This document shows positions 4,286 to 19,344 of a stretch of 33,916 nt of DNA, piece after piece. The position numbers were made by a program, and so were the translations under genes. Source of the DNA: Candidatus Brocadiaceae bacterium (lineage in GTDB: Bacteria > Planctomycetota > Brocadiia > SM23-32); contig PUMJ01000142.1 in assembly GCA_003551305.1 (NCBI GenBank), forward strand, positions 1 to 33,916. The letters run 5' to 3'. Positions within the stretch are counted from its first letter, which is position 1. Each line of letters opens with the position of its first letter. A model generated the notes under the pieces. That model saw only the letters and a program-made list of their open reading frames with translations, was not told the DNA's origin and searched no databases.

Positions 4286-4367
4286 GCGACCCCAACGAAC
4301 CCGCACGGTCAGCACTTCCCGGCGGGTAGGTGCCATGCCCTGGCAAAGCAACCTGGCCGGCTTGACA
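4286..4367 (+). repeat. 82-bp conserved upstream element, copy A
   Basis: This segment aligns without gaps to the reverse complement of 19263-19344 with 66 of 82 positions identical by hand count; most differences are C/T or A/G. Similarity stops at the last base of TTGACA (4362-4367), which serves as the -35 hexamer of the promoter for the gene at 4475. The best conserved core is GGTnCCATGnCCTGGCAAAG. Here it contains the short inverted repeat TGCCA-TGCCC-TGGCA. Because it lies just upstream of a -35 box, an activator-binding region or a promoter-carrying dispersed repeat is the simplest reading. Confidence 0.7.
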
Positions 4368-4390
4368 TACCGGCCCGCTCTGCCTATTGT
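4362..4390 (+). promoter_or_regulatory. Sigma-70-type promoter for the glycosidase gene
   Basis: A perfect TTGACA at 4362-4367 is followed after exactly 17 bp by TATTGT (4385-4390). Transcription would start near 4397, giving a leader of about 78 nt before the ATG at 4475. The -35 hexamer is the downstream edge of the conserved 82-bp element. Confidence 0.7.
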
Positions 4391-4474: not shown

Positions 4475-7400
4475 ATGAGGAAGTGCCTGGCCGTAGTGTT
4501 GTTGTGTTTGCTGTTCATGGGCGCCTCCGTCCGCGCGGACGAGGCCATCTGGATAGAGGGCGAGGAGCCCACCTCTCACACGTTCAACCGCCACAGGTGG
4601 TATTCCAGCGAAGGAGTGGACACCTCGGTGCTGAGCGGGGGTGACTGGCTGGCGCACTACCACGAGAGTCAGCCGGCGCAGGCTCACTACTTTTTCCAGG
4701 TCAGGCAGGGCGGCACCTACACCCTGTGGATCCGCTGCAACCCTTACCAGATCGAACACGAAATCTCCATCCGCAATCACCCGACCAGGACGCTGGACCC
4801 CGCTACGGCGCAGGACACCAGGCCCGTGCTCGAAGAGGGCGAGAGAGACATCCGCCGGATCGGTTGGTTCGAGGTGGGAGAGTATGACCTCGAACCCGGC
4901 CGCTATGTGCTGACCATAGGGGTGGAGGCCGGCGCGGGCGAATCCCACGCTGGCATTGACGCCATCGCCCTGGTGAACTTCCCATGGGTGCCGGAGGGCG
5001 CCGAGCGTCCTGAAGTCGGCCCCGCCGCCGGCGACAGCCCCACCGGGGCGCACGTGTGGATAGAAGGTCAGGACCCCGCGCGACATAACTTCAACGAGCA
5101 TGGCTGGTACAGCAGCACTGACGTCAACCGCGACTTGCTCAGCGGCGGAGACTGGCTGGCCCACTACAGCAGTGACCAGTCCGCCATGGCCGAGTACCAC
5201 TTCACCATCCCCGAGAGCGGCACCTACACGTGGTGGCTCCGCCTGAACCCGCGCAACAGGGAGCAGCGCTACTCCCTGGACGGCGGGCGGACCTGGGAGC
5301 GGATACCGCTCGACGACGTGCGCGAACGCAACAACCTCCTGACAGAGGGGATAGACATACGCTTCATCGGCTGGGTCAGGGTCGGCTCCTTTGACTTCGA
5401 AGCCGGCCGTCAGGCGGTCCTGCTGGAGGTGAGCCCGCGGAACGGCGAAGCCCACACGGGCATAGACTGCATGGCGTTCGTCAGCTTCCCGTGGGCGCCC
5501 AGCGGCCTGGCCCGGCCCGAACCGCCCGAGCCCGCAGCCCCCGACACGTGGTTCCCGTTCTTCCCCGCCGACGATGAGTTCTCCGAAGACTCCATCATAG
5601 ACATGACGTCTCTGATCGAGCGGACCACCGGCATCCCGGCCGGCGCGCACGGCTTCGTGCGCCGGGACCGGGACCGCTTCATCCTGAGCGATCGGCCCGA
5701 TGAGCCGGTCAAGTTCTGGGGCACCTGCGCCAGCCCCGCTCCAACCCCCGAACTGCAACACCAGCAGGCCCGCTTCTACGTCAAGCACGGCATTAACCTC
5801 GTGCGGCGCCACACCGTGCAGGCGGAGATCGGGCTGCTGCAGACCGACCCCGAAACCGGGGAGCGCCATTTCGACCCGGACCGGCTCGACCGGTTCGACA
5901 AGTGGTTCTCCATCCTGAAAGAACACGGCATCTACATGTGCTGGTCTTCCTTCTACCCGCACGTTATCACGCCGGAGGACGGCTATCCGCCCGAACTCTA
6001 CGAGGAATTGTCCGACCGCGGGGAGGGCAAGAGCACAACCGGGATGGTCAACTTCATGCCCGAACTGCAGGACGCCCAGTGGGAGTGGCTCAAGACGCTG
6101 CTGCAGCACAGGAATCCCTACACCGGCAACCGTTACATAGACGAACCGGCGCTGGCCATCGTCGAGACGCACAACGAGGACTGCATCTTCTTCCACAGCC
6201 CTCTGAACCAACTGGCCGAGGGGGACCGCATGCCCCGCCACACGGCCATCCTGCAGCGCAAGTGGGCCGAATGGCTGCAGGAGCGCTACGGCGACGACGA
6301 TGCCCTGCGCGAGGCGTGGGGGGACGGCATGCGGAGCGGGGACTCCATCCACAACGAGAGCATGGGCATCTACGGCGCCTGGCAGATGGGCCCCGAGGGC
6401 CCGATCATCGGCGAGACCGTGCGCGAGCGGGAACGGCAACGCGTGGGCGACTTCATCCGCTTCCTGGCCGAAACGCAGCGATCCTTCTACGAGAGGCGCG
6501 AGCGGCGCCTGCGGGACCTCGGCTTCAAGGCGACCACCATCTCGACGGCCTGGCGGGCCGGGGGGCCGGCCGCCGACCCGGCCAACATCTGGGCCGACGA
6601 TGCCCAGGAGGTCATCAGCCGGCACAACTACTTCGGCGGCGGCGCCGGAGGGCACGACATCCGCGTCGGCCACGTCAACAACGAGTCCCACATGCCCACT
6701 CCCGGAAGCCGCATCCTATCCACCGGCATGTACCAGGTCGAAGACAAGCCGTTCATGAAGACGGAATGGACGCAGTTGCCGCCGAACCAGTGGAAGGCGG
6801 AGGCGGCGCCGCTTTTCGCCTTCTACGGCATGGGCCTGCAGGGTTGGGACGCCTCTACCCACTTCGCCGGCAGCACGCCGCGCATGGGCAGCGGGTGGCC
6901 ACGCATGCGCTCCTACGTCACCGAGACCCCCCACTACCTGGGGCAGTTCCCGGCGCTCGCCTTCAGCATCCACAATAACCACGTCCGGGAGGCGCCCATC
7001 GCCGCCGCCCGGCGCCTGCAACTGGAGGACATCTTCCAGGGCATTGACGCCCTGAACCAGGACTTCACCGGCGGCGGCTATGACCAGAAAGAACTGGTCG
7101 GCAGCCTCGAGACGCCCAGGGAAGCGCTGGCCATCGGGCGCGTGACGGTCAAAGTCGATGAGGACGTTGACCCGCCCGAGAAGGTGGACTGGGACGACTA
7201 CTGGGACCGCAGCAGCCGGGTGGTCGAGAGCATAACCGGCGACCTGGTCTGGGACTACGCCAACGAGGTCGTCACCGTGCGCTCGGAGAAGACCCAGGGC
7301 ATCATCGGTTTTGCCGACGGGCAGAGTTTCGAGTTGCCCGCCCTGCAGGCCGAGGTCCGCACGCCGTTCGTGAGCCTCATCTTCACGCCGCTGGACAACC

Positions 7401-7684
7401 GGCCGCTGGTCGAGTCCGAGCACATCCTCATAACGGCCATGGCGCGGGACAAGCAGACGGGCGCCCGCTACAACGAAGACGGCACCGAGCTGCTGGAGGC
7501 CGGCGCCCCGCCGCTTCTGATGGAGCCCGTACAGGCGACCATCACGCTGGACGGCTCGCCCATCGAGTCCCTCCGCGTGGTGGACATCTTTGGCGTGCCC
7601 ACCGAGCGCGAGGTCCGACGCACGGGCAACACCTTCGACATAGACGGACGCTACGCCACCTACTACTACGAGATCAGACGGTAG
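4475..7684 (+). CDS. Secreted multidomain glycoside-hydrolase-like protein with duplicated N-terminal domain
   Basis: The 1069-aa product starts with a signal peptide (MRKCLAVVLLCLLFMGASVRA). Two homologous beta-sandwich-like repeats follow, at about residues 25-175 and 190-345. Each opens with WIEG, contains a LSGGDWLAHY block and ends in a FPW segment, and they resemble carbohydrate-binding or galactose-binding-like modules. The central region (about 355-820) looks like a clan GH-A TIM barrel. N567-E568 in ETHNED fits the Asn-Glu acid/base pair at the end of strand 4, and E764 in FMKTEW fits a nucleophile. The last 250 residues look beta-rich. The product probably acts on a polysaccharide outside the cytoplasm, in line with the two lyase-like genes upstream. 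It has its own strong promoter. The exact GH family cannot be set by eye, and the catalytic assignment is inference from motif position. Confidence 0.75.
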   Translation: MRKCLAVVLLCLLFMGASVRADEAIWIEGEEPTSHTFNRHRWYSSEGVDTSVLSGGDWLAHYHESQPAQAHYFFQVRQGGTYTLWIRCNPYQIEHEISIRNHPTRTLDPATAQDTRPVLEEGERDIRRIGWFEVGEYDLEPGRYVLTIGVEAGAGESHAGIDAIALVNFPWVPEGAERPEVGPAAGDSPTGAHVWIEGQDPARHNFNEHGWYSSTDVNRDLLSGGDWLAHYSSDQSAMAEYHFTIPESGTYTWWLRLNPRNREQRYSLDGGRTWERIPLDDVRERNNLLTEGIDIRFIGWVRVGSFDFEAGRQAVLLEVSPRNGEAHTGIDCMAFVSFPWAPSGLARPEPPEPAAPDTWFPFFPADDEFSEDSIIDMTSLIERTTGIPAGAHGFVRRDRDRFILSDRPDEPVKFWGTCASPAPTPELQHQQARFYVKHGINLVRRHTVQAEIGLLQTDPETGERHFDPDRLDRFDKWFSILKEHGIYMCWSSFYPHVITPEDGYPPELYEELSDRGEGKSTTGMVNFMPELQDAQWEWLKTLLQHRNPYTGNRYIDEPALAIVETHNEDCIFFHSPLNQLAEGDRMPRHTAILQRKWAEWLQERYGDDDALREAWGDGMRSGDSIHNESMGIYGAWQMGPEGPIIGETVRERERQRVGDFIRFLAETQRSFYERRERRLRDLGFKATTISTAWRAGGPAADPANIWADDAQEVISRHNYFGGGAGGHDIRVGHVNNESHMPTPGSRILSTGMYQVEDKPFMKTEWTQLPPNQWKAEAAPLFAFYGMGLQGWDASTHFAGSTPRMGSGWPRMRSYVTETPHYLGQFPALAFSIHNNHVREAPIAAARRLQLEDIFQGIDALNQDFTGGGYDQKELVGSLETPREALAIGRVTVKVDEDVDPPEKVDWDDYWDRSSRVVESITGDLVWDYANEVVTVRSEKTQGIIGFADGQSFELPALQAEVRTPFVSLIFTPLDNRPLVESEHILITAMARDKQTGARYNEDGTELLEAGAPPLLMEPVQATITLDGSPIESLRVVDIFGVPTEREVRRTGNTFDIDGRYATYYYEIRR

Positions 7685-17102: not shown

Positions 17103-18632
17103 TCAGGAGGAAGGGACCGTCGCCGTTGCAGGTTCGCCCTCGTACTTGCGCGCGATGCGTCGCTGGATGTCTTTTTTGACCAGGGACCAGGCGCAGACGG
17201 GCACGAGCCCGAGCTGCTCGCTGTCGGGGTCCAGGTAGGCGAAGGCCGCCCGACAGTCGCGCAGCCTTTGGCTCTCCACCGAATGGTACTCTTCGAACGG
17301 CAACACCACCATGCGCAGAACCCTGCCGACACAGGTATAGGCGCGCAGGGCATCCTTCAGCTTGCGGCCACGCAGCAGCAGCCCCAGCACGCCGATGGGG
17401 CCGGCCACGGGGCGGCCCTTGAACAGCCGCCGCCAGTTAATGAACCCCAGAAGTGAGGGGCCAATCGCGCCGGCACACCGCAGAAAGCCGAGCGCCCGGT
17501 GGGCGGGCCGGTCGGGGTTCAACCGCGACAGGAAAGGCTCCAGTTCCAGGGCAGCGTCCACAAGGCCGGCCAGCAGCTCATCCAGAGGGCCGTTGGTGAA
17601 ATCGGAGATGGGACGGTATTGCTCGCCGTTGGAGAGCAGGTAGGTGCTGGACTCGCAGTTGGGATGCACACCCCCGAAGGTCAGCCCTGCACTGGTCGTG
17701 AAGTTGGCCACCCGCGCCAGCCGTCCCGGCAGCCCGGCCGGCCAGAACTCGACACGCCCGTCGTCGTAGGCGTTGTCCACGATGCGTTCGACGTCCTCGA
17801 TAGTCGTGGTGACATCCGCCTCGAACTCCCCCTCTTCCCACGTCTCGGTCAGCGGGATGAGGTGCATGGCGCGGAATGCCTCGCCGTGCTCATGGCAGAA
17901 ACGTATCAGCCGGCCCATGTGGTCCTCGTTGATCTGACGGGCCACGCAGACCATGAGGGTGTTGCGGCGCTTGCTGTACTTGACCACGTTCTCAAGCGCC
18001 CGCATCTTCTTCTCGAAAGCCCCGGGGTTTCGCCGCAACCTCTCATAGACGTCCGCGCTCAGGCCGTCCAGCGACAACAGAAGCGGCACTTTCAGAGCCG
18101 TGATCTTGCGGCAGTAGTCCTCGTCGGCCAATCGGAGCCCGTTGGTGACGATGCGGGGCCTGAGCCCGCAACGCCGGGCGGCCGCCAGGATCTCGGGCAG
18201 GTCGTCTCGCACGGTTGGTTCCCCGCCGAACAGGTTGACCCGCGGTCGCGGCTCCATCCGCGAGAGCGCCTCGAACACGGCCTCGAAGTAGCTGAGCGGC
18301 GGCTCGAACTGGAACCCCATTGCCGGGATGTTGGCAATACAGATGGGGCAGTTCATGTTGCACCGGTTCGTCACGTCCACGAAGACCATGGCGGGGTGGT
18401 GGGCGTGCCCGCACCCGGTGCAGATCAGGCTGCACGCGGGGCCTTCGTCCTCATCATACTGCCAGATGTCGCGTTTGCGTTGCCACGTGTCGGCGTCCGT
18501 GCTCACTACGGACTCGGACGGCCCGCACCCCGGGCACTCTTTACGCAGATAAACCCTGCCCCCACGGATGACGTGCCCGGCGGGAACCGGCATCCGGCAG
18601 ACAGAACATATGGCGAGATTTCCCCCGGACAT
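17103..18632 (-). CDS. Radical SAM protein with N-terminal cysteine clusters (Tes/MJ0619-like layout)
   Basis: The 509-aa product starts with a zinc-ribbon-like pair (C9, C12 and C33, C36) and a second Cys group (C67, C71, C74). The radical SAM motif RCNMNCPIC (C91, C95, C98) binds the [4Fe-4S] cluster that cleaves SAM. NLFGGEPT follows in the SAM-binding region, with RIVTNGLRL and LLLSLDGL after it. This N-terminal order (ribbon, Cys group, then VTNRCN) resembles the archaeal tetraether-lipid synthase (Tes) group and its bacterial relatives, and a hydrophobic segment near residues 390-440 suits membrane contact. A lipid role is inference only. The ATG at 18632 is preferred because AGAGGGGA lies just upstream; the frame extends to 18680. 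The gene sits between a lipoprotein gene and the PLP-enzyme gene in one likely operon. Confidence 0.78.
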   Translation of the reverse strand: MSGGNLAICSVCRMPVPAGHVIRGGRVYLRKECPGCGPSESVVSTDADTWQRKRDIWQYDEDEGPACSLICTGCGHAHHPAMVFVDVTNRCNMNCPICIANIPAMGFQFEPPLSYFEAVFEALSRMEPRPRVNLFGGEPTVRDDLPEILAAARRCGLRPRIVTNGLRLADEDYCRKITALKVPLLLSLDGLSADVYERLRRNPGAFEKKMRALENVVKYSKRRNTLMVCVARQINEDHMGRLIRFCHEHGEAFRAMHLIPLTETWEEGEFEADVTTTIEDVERIVDNAYDDGRVEFWPAGLPGRLARVANFTTSAGLTFGGVHPNCESSTYLLSNGEQYRPISDFTNGPLDELLAGLVDAALELEPFLSRLNPDRPAHRALGFLRCAGAIGPSLLGFINWRRLFKGRPVAGPIGVLGLLLRGRKLKDALRAYTCVGRVLRMVVLPFEEYHSVESQRLRDCRAAFAYLDPDSEQLGLVPVCAWSLVKKDIQRRIARKYEGEPATATVPSS

Positions 18633-18651
18633 GAGGTCCCCTCTTGCCACG

Positions 18652-19179
18652 CTAATGGACGTCGTCTCCCATGGGGTCAAGGGTGAACCAGCCGAGCAGG
18701 AAGTCGGCCAGTTCCCCGAACCGGCAGTTGAGCGTCAGACCCACGAAGCCCAGGTGCAGTATCTTGGGGCAGTTCAGCACCTGTCCCCGCGGCGGTCTCG
18801 GGCCTTCGGCCAGGCCCATCAGCCCCACCCGCCAGGCCTCGGGCTCGCCCCCGTTAGCAGGGCTAAATTCCCCGTAGGCGAACTGCTCGGTGCCCCAAAG
18901 AACCAGTCCGGTGGCGTGTTGGCGAGCGGGCATACCGCCCACGTTCCGATCCCCGATGCCCACCAGTGTGCCGTCAAAGTTTGAGTAACCGATGCTCAGC
19001 ACGTTCAGAAATCCGGCGTAGAGCCCGAACTGCGGTGTGGACGACCCGGTGACGCCGACATCGAATATGTCGAGAGCGTCGTTGCCACGGTTCGCCCAGT
19101 AAGCGGTGCTGCAACCGGAGAAGAAAAACAGCGAAACGCCCATCATGCCCAGCAGGCAAATCCTCAGAAGCTTTGACAT
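18652..19179 (-). CDS. Lipoprotein of unknown function
   Basis: The 175-aa product has a lipoprotein signal (MSKLLRICLLGMMGVSLFFF) with lipobox FSGC, so Cys23 would be lipidated. The mature part is Gly-rich with short beta-like blocks (DIFDVGVTGSS, FGLYAGFLNVLSIGYSNFDG, VGIGDRNVGG) and ends in HLGFVGLTLNCRFGELADFL. Strongly spaced Gly and Phe/Tyr residues suggest a small outer-membrane-associated beta protein. GGAGG lies 7 nt before the ATG. It is the first gene of the unit that continues into the radical SAM and PLP-enzyme genes (gap 19 bp), and is driven by the promoter carrying copy B of the conserved upstream element. I do not recognise a named family. Confidence 0.75.
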   Translation of the reverse strand: MSKLLRICLLGMMGVSLFFFSGCSTAYWANRGNDALDIFDVGVTGSSTPQFGLYAGFLNVLSIGYSNFDGTLVGIGDRNVGGMPARQHATGLVLWGTEQFAYGEFSPANGGEPEAWRVGLMGLAEGPRPPRGQVLNCPKILHLGFVGLTLNCRFGELADFLLGWFTLDPMGDDVH

Positions 19180-19238: not shown

Positions 19239-19268
19239 ACTCTACCTCAACTCCGCCACGCCTGTCAA
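19239..19268 (-). promoter_or_regulatory. Promoter for the lipoprotein/radical SAM/PLP unit
   Basis: On the minus strand a perfect TTGACA (19263-19268) is followed after 18 bp by TAGAGT (19239-19244). The start of transcription would be near 19232, about 50 nt before the ATG. The -35 hexamer is the edge of the conserved 82-bp element, exactly as at 4362. Confidence 0.6.
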
Positions 19269-19344
19269 GCCGCCCGGGTTACTTTGCCAGGACATGGTAC
19301 CCACCCACCGGGGTGTGCTGATCGTGTAGATTCAGTGGGGGCGC
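19263..19344 (-). repeat. 82-bp conserved upstream element, copy B
   Basis: On the minus strand this aligns without gaps to 4286-4367 (66 of 82 identical). It ends on TTGACA in the same position and has the same orientation relative to the gene it precedes. The core reads GGTACCATGTCCTGGCAAAG. The distal edge is a perfect GGGGGCGCCCCC palindrome that copy A lacks. Confidence 0.7.

Follow-up and report, generated by a model that had tools for sequence, protein, structure and literature searches.

A 68-bp sequence block repeated at a near-constant distance upstream of the -35 boxes of diverse promoters in a Candidatus Brocadiaceae genome

The window analysed here, the whole 33,916-nucleotide stretch of contig PUMJ01000142.1 of a Candidatus Brocadiaceae bacterium, contains two copies of a 68-bp block, each placed ahead of a promoter. 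Copy A (4286-4353, forward strand) agrees with the commonest sequence of the block at 57 of 68 positions; the part of it that is common to related genera (the core, 4320-4353) falls within a profile match at 4320-4366 (E-value 7.8e-10). It is followed by an 8-bp spacer (4354-4361), which is unconserved between copies and belongs to the host promoter, by the -35 hexamer TTGACA (4362-4367), by the -10 hexamer TATTGT (4385-4390) at a spacing of 17 bp, and by a forward-strand gene (4475-7684) for a secreted-looking protein with a weak match to GH42. A paralog of this gene on another contig of the same genome (C76) is likewise preceded by a copy of the element, albeit a weak and diverged one, which suggests that the gene and the element may have been duplicated together. 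Copy B (19277-19344, reverse strand; 62/68) sits between divergent genes and is followed on its own strand by an 8-bp spacer (19269-19276), TTGACA (19263-19268), the -10-like hexamer TAGAGT (19239-19244) at a spacing of 18 bp, a gene for a lipoprotein-like product without a Pfam match (18652-19179) and, as the next gene on this strand, one for a radical SAM protein (17103-18680). Both copies rank among the more diverged members of the family.

An earlier note on this DNA had reported that segment 4286-4367 and the reverse complement of 19263-19344 align without gaps at 66 of 82 positions and that both run into TTGACA with a -10-like hexamer beyond it. Both observations were reproduced, the runner-up place in the window reaching only 40/82. 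The accompanying statement that the similarity ends exactly at TTGACA requires correction: copies A and B do agree in part of the 8-bp spacer, but the spacer is not conserved family-wide, and the conserved block stops 8 bp before the hexamer, at positions 4353 and 19277.

The two copies are part of a much larger family. In the source genome, a fragmented draft of an uncultured planctomycete (3.89 Mb, 298 contigs), a BLAST search with copy A returned 16 further places at E<=2.2e-7, and the whole-genome profile scan that the note had proposed, carried out with a profile made from the sequences of 20 copies alone, returned 33 clear places at E<=1.2e-7, with a weaker tail that brings the total to about 40. 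The commonest sequence, GCGACCCCACTGAACCCACACGATCAGAACCTCCCGGTGGGTGGGTACCATGTCCTGGCAAAGTAACC, is followed by 8 variable bases, TTGAC(A) and, 16-18 bp further on, a TATAAT-like hexamer. Averaged over 16 near-identical copies, identity reaches 0.95 within the block, drops to 0.33 across the 8-bp spacer, rises to 0.73 at the -35 box and amounts to 0.29 over the following 28 bp; position by position, the pairwise identity is 0.88-1.0 late in the core and 0.23-0.50 over the 8 bp that come next, and it does not return before the -35 box. The right edge of the block, at core position 68, is thus sharp, whereas the left edge is less so, with some copies running into CGCCCGCCCCGGGGCGGGC and others beginning at GCGACC or no more than a few bases from it. 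Since the identity drops 8 bp before the -35 box, the copied unit does not include the promoter; the spacer, the -35 box and the -10 box are a property of each host promoter.

The position of the block relative to the promoter was examined with a search pattern that contains no -35 box (GGNYNCCATGTCCNNGCAAANNNAC) and thereby avoids circularity. Among the distinct matches with 0-1 mismatch in the source genome and its relatives, TTG occurs at the identical offset in 30 of 32; the share of the source genome is 19 of 20, the exception being the tRNA-Leu copy, a 67/68 match that lies 2 bp closer, 6 bp from the -35 box instead of 8. In the profile set the distance from the block to the -35 box is 8 bp in 25 of the 33 copies. 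This constancy, set against a -35 to -10 spacing that ranges from 16 to 19 bp, indicates that the block is phased to the -35 box and not to the -10 box. Every strong copy points toward the downstream gene, tRNA genes among them, so that the common orientation first noticed for the window pair holds throughout the strong copies, and none of these shows the location within genes or the random orientation that the note had named as grounds for abandoning its view. The source genome has no strong copy away from a promoter; in the related genome G008, a few weaker matches (on contigs C324, C411 and C392) have no -35 box in place.

Three copies are identical across all 68 bp and others are only 1-3 positions apart, while their spacers and downstream sequences are unrelated. 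In addition, the copies on contigs C286, C32, C41 and C184 form a subfamily with one variant in common, and copy B and the copy on C163, with a single mismatch across their shared stretch, each deviate from the commonest sequence at 5-6 positions. Near-identical copies with unrelated flanks, together with shared subfamily variants, show descent by copying rather than convergence. They speak against an ordinary transcription-factor regulon, in which mutation and selection would have produced the sites separately at each promoter; identical copies and linked variants at unrelated promoters would not be expected from such a process. We regard this explanation as improbable, even though it would account for the diverged copies that keep mostly the promoter-proximal core, for the graded series of weaker, partial but correctly positioned sites, and for the frequency of tRNA genes described below. 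Assembly artefact or contamination might be suspected in a fragmented draft, in which several copies lie at contig ends; however, the copies are distributed over about 30 contigs with differing flanks, and the element occurs independently in the assemblies CSMAG_2731 and B1Sed10_209R1, which leaves this possibility negligible.

Comparison with related genomes suggests how the block came to its present places. For about nine copy-bearing genes in total, the orthologs in relatives keep the -35 and -10 boxes and have no block. The orthologs of the C41 gene in G004, G005, G006 and G008 have promoters of the type TTGAC(A/G) plus TATAAT without it, and the same bare state is seen for the Rrf2 gene of C286 (in G005 and G008), the Rrf2 gene of C43 (G001, G004, G006), the C163 gene (G001, G004), SmpB (G004, G008), the phosphoesterase gene of C196 (G004, G005, G006) and the genes for tRNA-Leu, tRNA-Pro(cgg) and tRNA-Ser. 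For tRNA-Leu(gag), GTAACC followed by CGCGGCTTGACAGG in the source genome corresponds to GGCC followed by TGCGGCTTGACAGG in G001, with homology resuming at the right edge of the block. The block was therefore probably gained at pre-existing promoters. Two sites, at the tRNA-Pro(ggg) gene, whose promoter is bare in G001, and at a small-protein gene (C36/C337, 45% protein identity), are common to the source genome and G005, which implies that the block is old in the family. Parsimony over these few, incomplete draft genomes suggests that, most simply, the majority of the present copies would have been gained in the lineage of the source genome.

A second profile, restricted to the core, was run on the relatives and on the class. 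It finds the element in the source genome, G005, G008 and G006, with one plausible site in G002, all from the same family, and at E<=0.001 it matches no genome of the class outside this Brocadiaceae-like family; the idea of a general planctomycete motif was rejected on this account. When 84,980 species of bacteria and archaea were scanned for the exact pattern, only two other assemblies contained it, the above-mentioned CSMAG_2731 and B1Sed10_209R1, both named Candidatus Brocadiaceae bacterium. Viral contigs contain no match to the pattern, so that a viral origin was likewise dismissed. Between genera only the promoter-proximal core (approximately positions 35-68) is common, the distal half being lineage-specific. 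In G005, G008 and G006, which represent other genera, the core and its docking to the -35 box are kept, mostly at non-orthologous promoters.

The genes behind the copies are diverse. In the source genome they include those for tRNA-Pro(ggg), tRNA-Pro(cgg), tRNA-Leu(gag), tRNA-Ser(cga) and tRNA-His, as well as for SmpB, an NFACT-domain protein, an electron-transfer flavoprotein, H+-pyrophosphatase, PEPCK, two Rrf2 regulators, an HTH protein, an HMGL-like (LeuA-type) enzyme, MreD, peptidase S13 and several secreted or unknown proteins (the sites at tRNA-Pro(cgg), tRNA-His and the HMGL-like gene being weak). In G005 the element precedes four tRNA genes and genes for a class II tRNA synthetase, a PlsX-type protein, a PAPS reductase and an FHA protein, and in G006 a gene for chorismate mutase/prephenate dehydratase. 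No common pathway or clear regulon stands out among the genes behind the copies, and the specific co-control of a glycosidase and a lipoprotein operon, proposed when only the window pair was in view, finds no counterpart in this assortment. Genes for tRNA are apparently over-represented (5 of about 44 in the source genome and 4 of 16 in G005), given the assumption that about 3% of promoters serve tRNAs.

A role in RNA, as a structured element, a terminator or a leader of the upstream gene, might be suggested by a GC-rich palindrome just upstream of some copies. However, the block is located upstream of the promoter and hence outside that promoter's transcript, the palindrome is missing in most copies, and copy B lies between divergent genes. 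The one copy that was folded showed no structure above shuffled sequences (z +1.09), the covariation test that had been recommended for deciding between a DNA site and an RNA yielded no consensus pairs and hence no signal of RNA structure, and the Rfam search gave no match at curated thresholds and otherwise only matches at chance level. The RNA reading was rejected on these grounds, and we consider it very improbable. The idea that a hairpin upstream regularly belongs to the element was also discarded, since the hairpin is strong in only a few copies (mean z -0.6).

We propose, as the probable explanation, that the block is an upstream regulatory DNA element to which a putative factor binds beside RNA polymerase, and which has spread by being copied to promoters. 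It would act as double-stranded DNA, over roughly -111 to -44 relative to the transcription start, and would add regulation to ordinary sigma70-type promoters. The putative DNA-binding factor would recognize mainly the promoter-proximal core GGGTGGGTACCATGTCC-N-GGCAAAGTAAC and, its position being fixed relative to the -35 box, could contact RNA polymerase through the alpha C-terminal domain or sigma region 4. The conserved core and its fixed register are most simply read as the site of a factor that would reach RNA polymerase from around -75 to -44, and we infer protein binding, with activation rather than repression. The 68-bp version, or a longer one, would have been copied onto many pre-existing promoters in the lineage of the source genome, after which the copies diverged unequally. 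What counts against a pure binding site is that near-complete identity across 68 bp exceeds the usual needs of such a site; this excess, together with the restriction of positions 1-34 to individual lineages, suggests that the block may include some passenger sequence.

Class I activator sites, such as that of CRP near -61.5, lie upstream of the -35 box of a sigma70 promoter at a fixed position. The block resembles them in its position upstream of the -35 box, its fixed register, its single orientation and its canonical sigma70 promoters, but it has an asymmetric core of about 30 bp within 68 nearly identical bp, and its copies are related by descent. UP elements are found directly upstream of the -35 box, often at stable-RNA promoters, and are A+T-rich and degenerate. 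The block also lies near the -35 box and is found at tRNA promoters among others, but it is G+C-rich and sequence-specific.

The earlier note had left open whether the window pair represents an activator site or a dispersed repeat that delivers promoters. The element indeed proves to be a dispersed, copied repeat, and it is placed like an activator site, 8 bp from the -35 box and in one orientation; the delivery of promoters has to be abandoned, as these are older and lie outside the unit. Putative mobile promoters are short repeats before unrelated genes, for which a spread inside genomes has been proposed (Matus-Garcia et al. 2012; van Passel et al. 2014, as outlined in PMC8049555). As outlined there, they share with our element the near-identical short repeats ahead of unrelated genes, but their repeat is taken to be the promoter itself, whereas here it stops 8 bp before a native, older promoter.

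We infer that the copying proceeded either by ectopic gene conversion or by a promoter-directed insertion resembling transposition. Conversion among partial sites of older date would give the register without special machinery, while promoter-guided insertion would explain copies at places where the orthologs show no older site. It is conceivable, though doubtful, that the element multiplies by inserting a set distance upstream of an existing -35 box, guided by the promoter or the bound RNA polymerase, and thereby places many unrelated genes, those for tRNAs among them, under one regulator. A related explanation, which we hold to be unlikely, is that of a small mobile and possibly selfish element, whose insertion machinery would be aimed at promoters (e.g. 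at RNA polymerase or sigma bound to the -35 box) at a fixed distance, with regulation being secondary. Near-identical, sharp-edged copies that are absent from orthologous promoters, the lack of strong off-promoter copies in the source genome, and the tRNA-Leu copy, which looks like a slightly shifted insertion, all fit such an element. So does an 18-bp perfect palindrome, GCCCGCCCCGGGGCGGGC, which occurs five times in the source genome (C23, C56, C88, C167, C220) and twice in G008 (C79, C392), thus in two different genera, every time directly beside a copy of the element and nowhere else in the genomes searched, with some contigs ending at or in it; it is absent from G001, G004 and G005. This palindrome accompanies only some copies and is missing in most, and thus is not the core of the repeat. 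On the other hand, no transposase linked to the element was found, no target-site duplications or terminal inverted repeats were seen by eye at the copies inspected, and the preservation of the core and its docking across genus-level divergence suggests function.

Among the known short dispersed extragenic repeats, REP/REPIN sequences, some of which contain palindromes, are associated with RAYT transposases (PMC3116915, PMC3733652). They resemble the element in being short, dispersed and extragenic, with a palindrome at some copies, but they have no known tie to -35 boxes, and RAYT-type genes do not follow the element here: Y1_Tnp matches number one in the source genome, none in G005, which has the element, and five in G001, which does not. 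Mobilization of the REP/RAYT type was rejected for this reason. The yeast Ty3 element is a eukaryotic retrotransposon that inserts at a fixed distance from the promoters of Pol III genes, including tRNA genes. The fixed distance from the promoter and the tRNA genes among the targets are shared with our block, but no integrase was found here. We know of no Ty3-like promoter-targeted integration in bacteria, and a limited literature search on bacterial insertion aimed at promoters, or on bacterial repeats dispersed upstream of genes, returned nothing relevant.

The common view of regulons is that they expand slowly, by mutation of one site at a time. In the present case an entire upstream module has apparently been copied to dozens of promoters that already existed, in register with the -35 box, and the same promoters in relatives are bare. 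If confirmed, this would be a direct example of a bacterial regulatory network growing by copying and docking, and it raises the testable question of how the -35 register is achieved. The element is moreover a marker for a predictable group of promoters in an uncultured lineage of planctomycetes.

Other repeats are found in the same genomes. A second dispersed repeat of at least 120 bp occurs on seven contigs of the source genome (C289, C274, C254, C225, C285, C86 and C30), at contig ends. It ends in GGGTGGGGAGGATGTCCTGGCAAAGTACA, and its last 27 bp are 89% like the core of the block (E 0.005) and stop at nearly the same base; a promoter follows in three copies, with the -35 box 24-27 bp beyond AAAGT as compared to 12 bp for the 68-bp block. 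No transposase was recognized in its open frame. Judging by this resemblance, the second repeat may be a relative or a donor of the block, or the likeness may be due to chance. In G004 (contigs C22, C35, C64, C62, C3 and others), an 89-bp repeat that ends in TTGACA lies upstream of two tRNA genes as well as at many contig ends, and is also found in the source genome (C296:1923-1975). It was considered as a parallel case and rejected, having 24 matches, many of them at contig ends; it is probably the end of an insertion sequence with an outward -35 box. Finally, in G008, about 150 bp upstream of the element (AACCAGCCCCGCAAGGGGCGAAACAAAATCC...) are also repeated between contigs C273 and C392, as a separate dispersed repeat.
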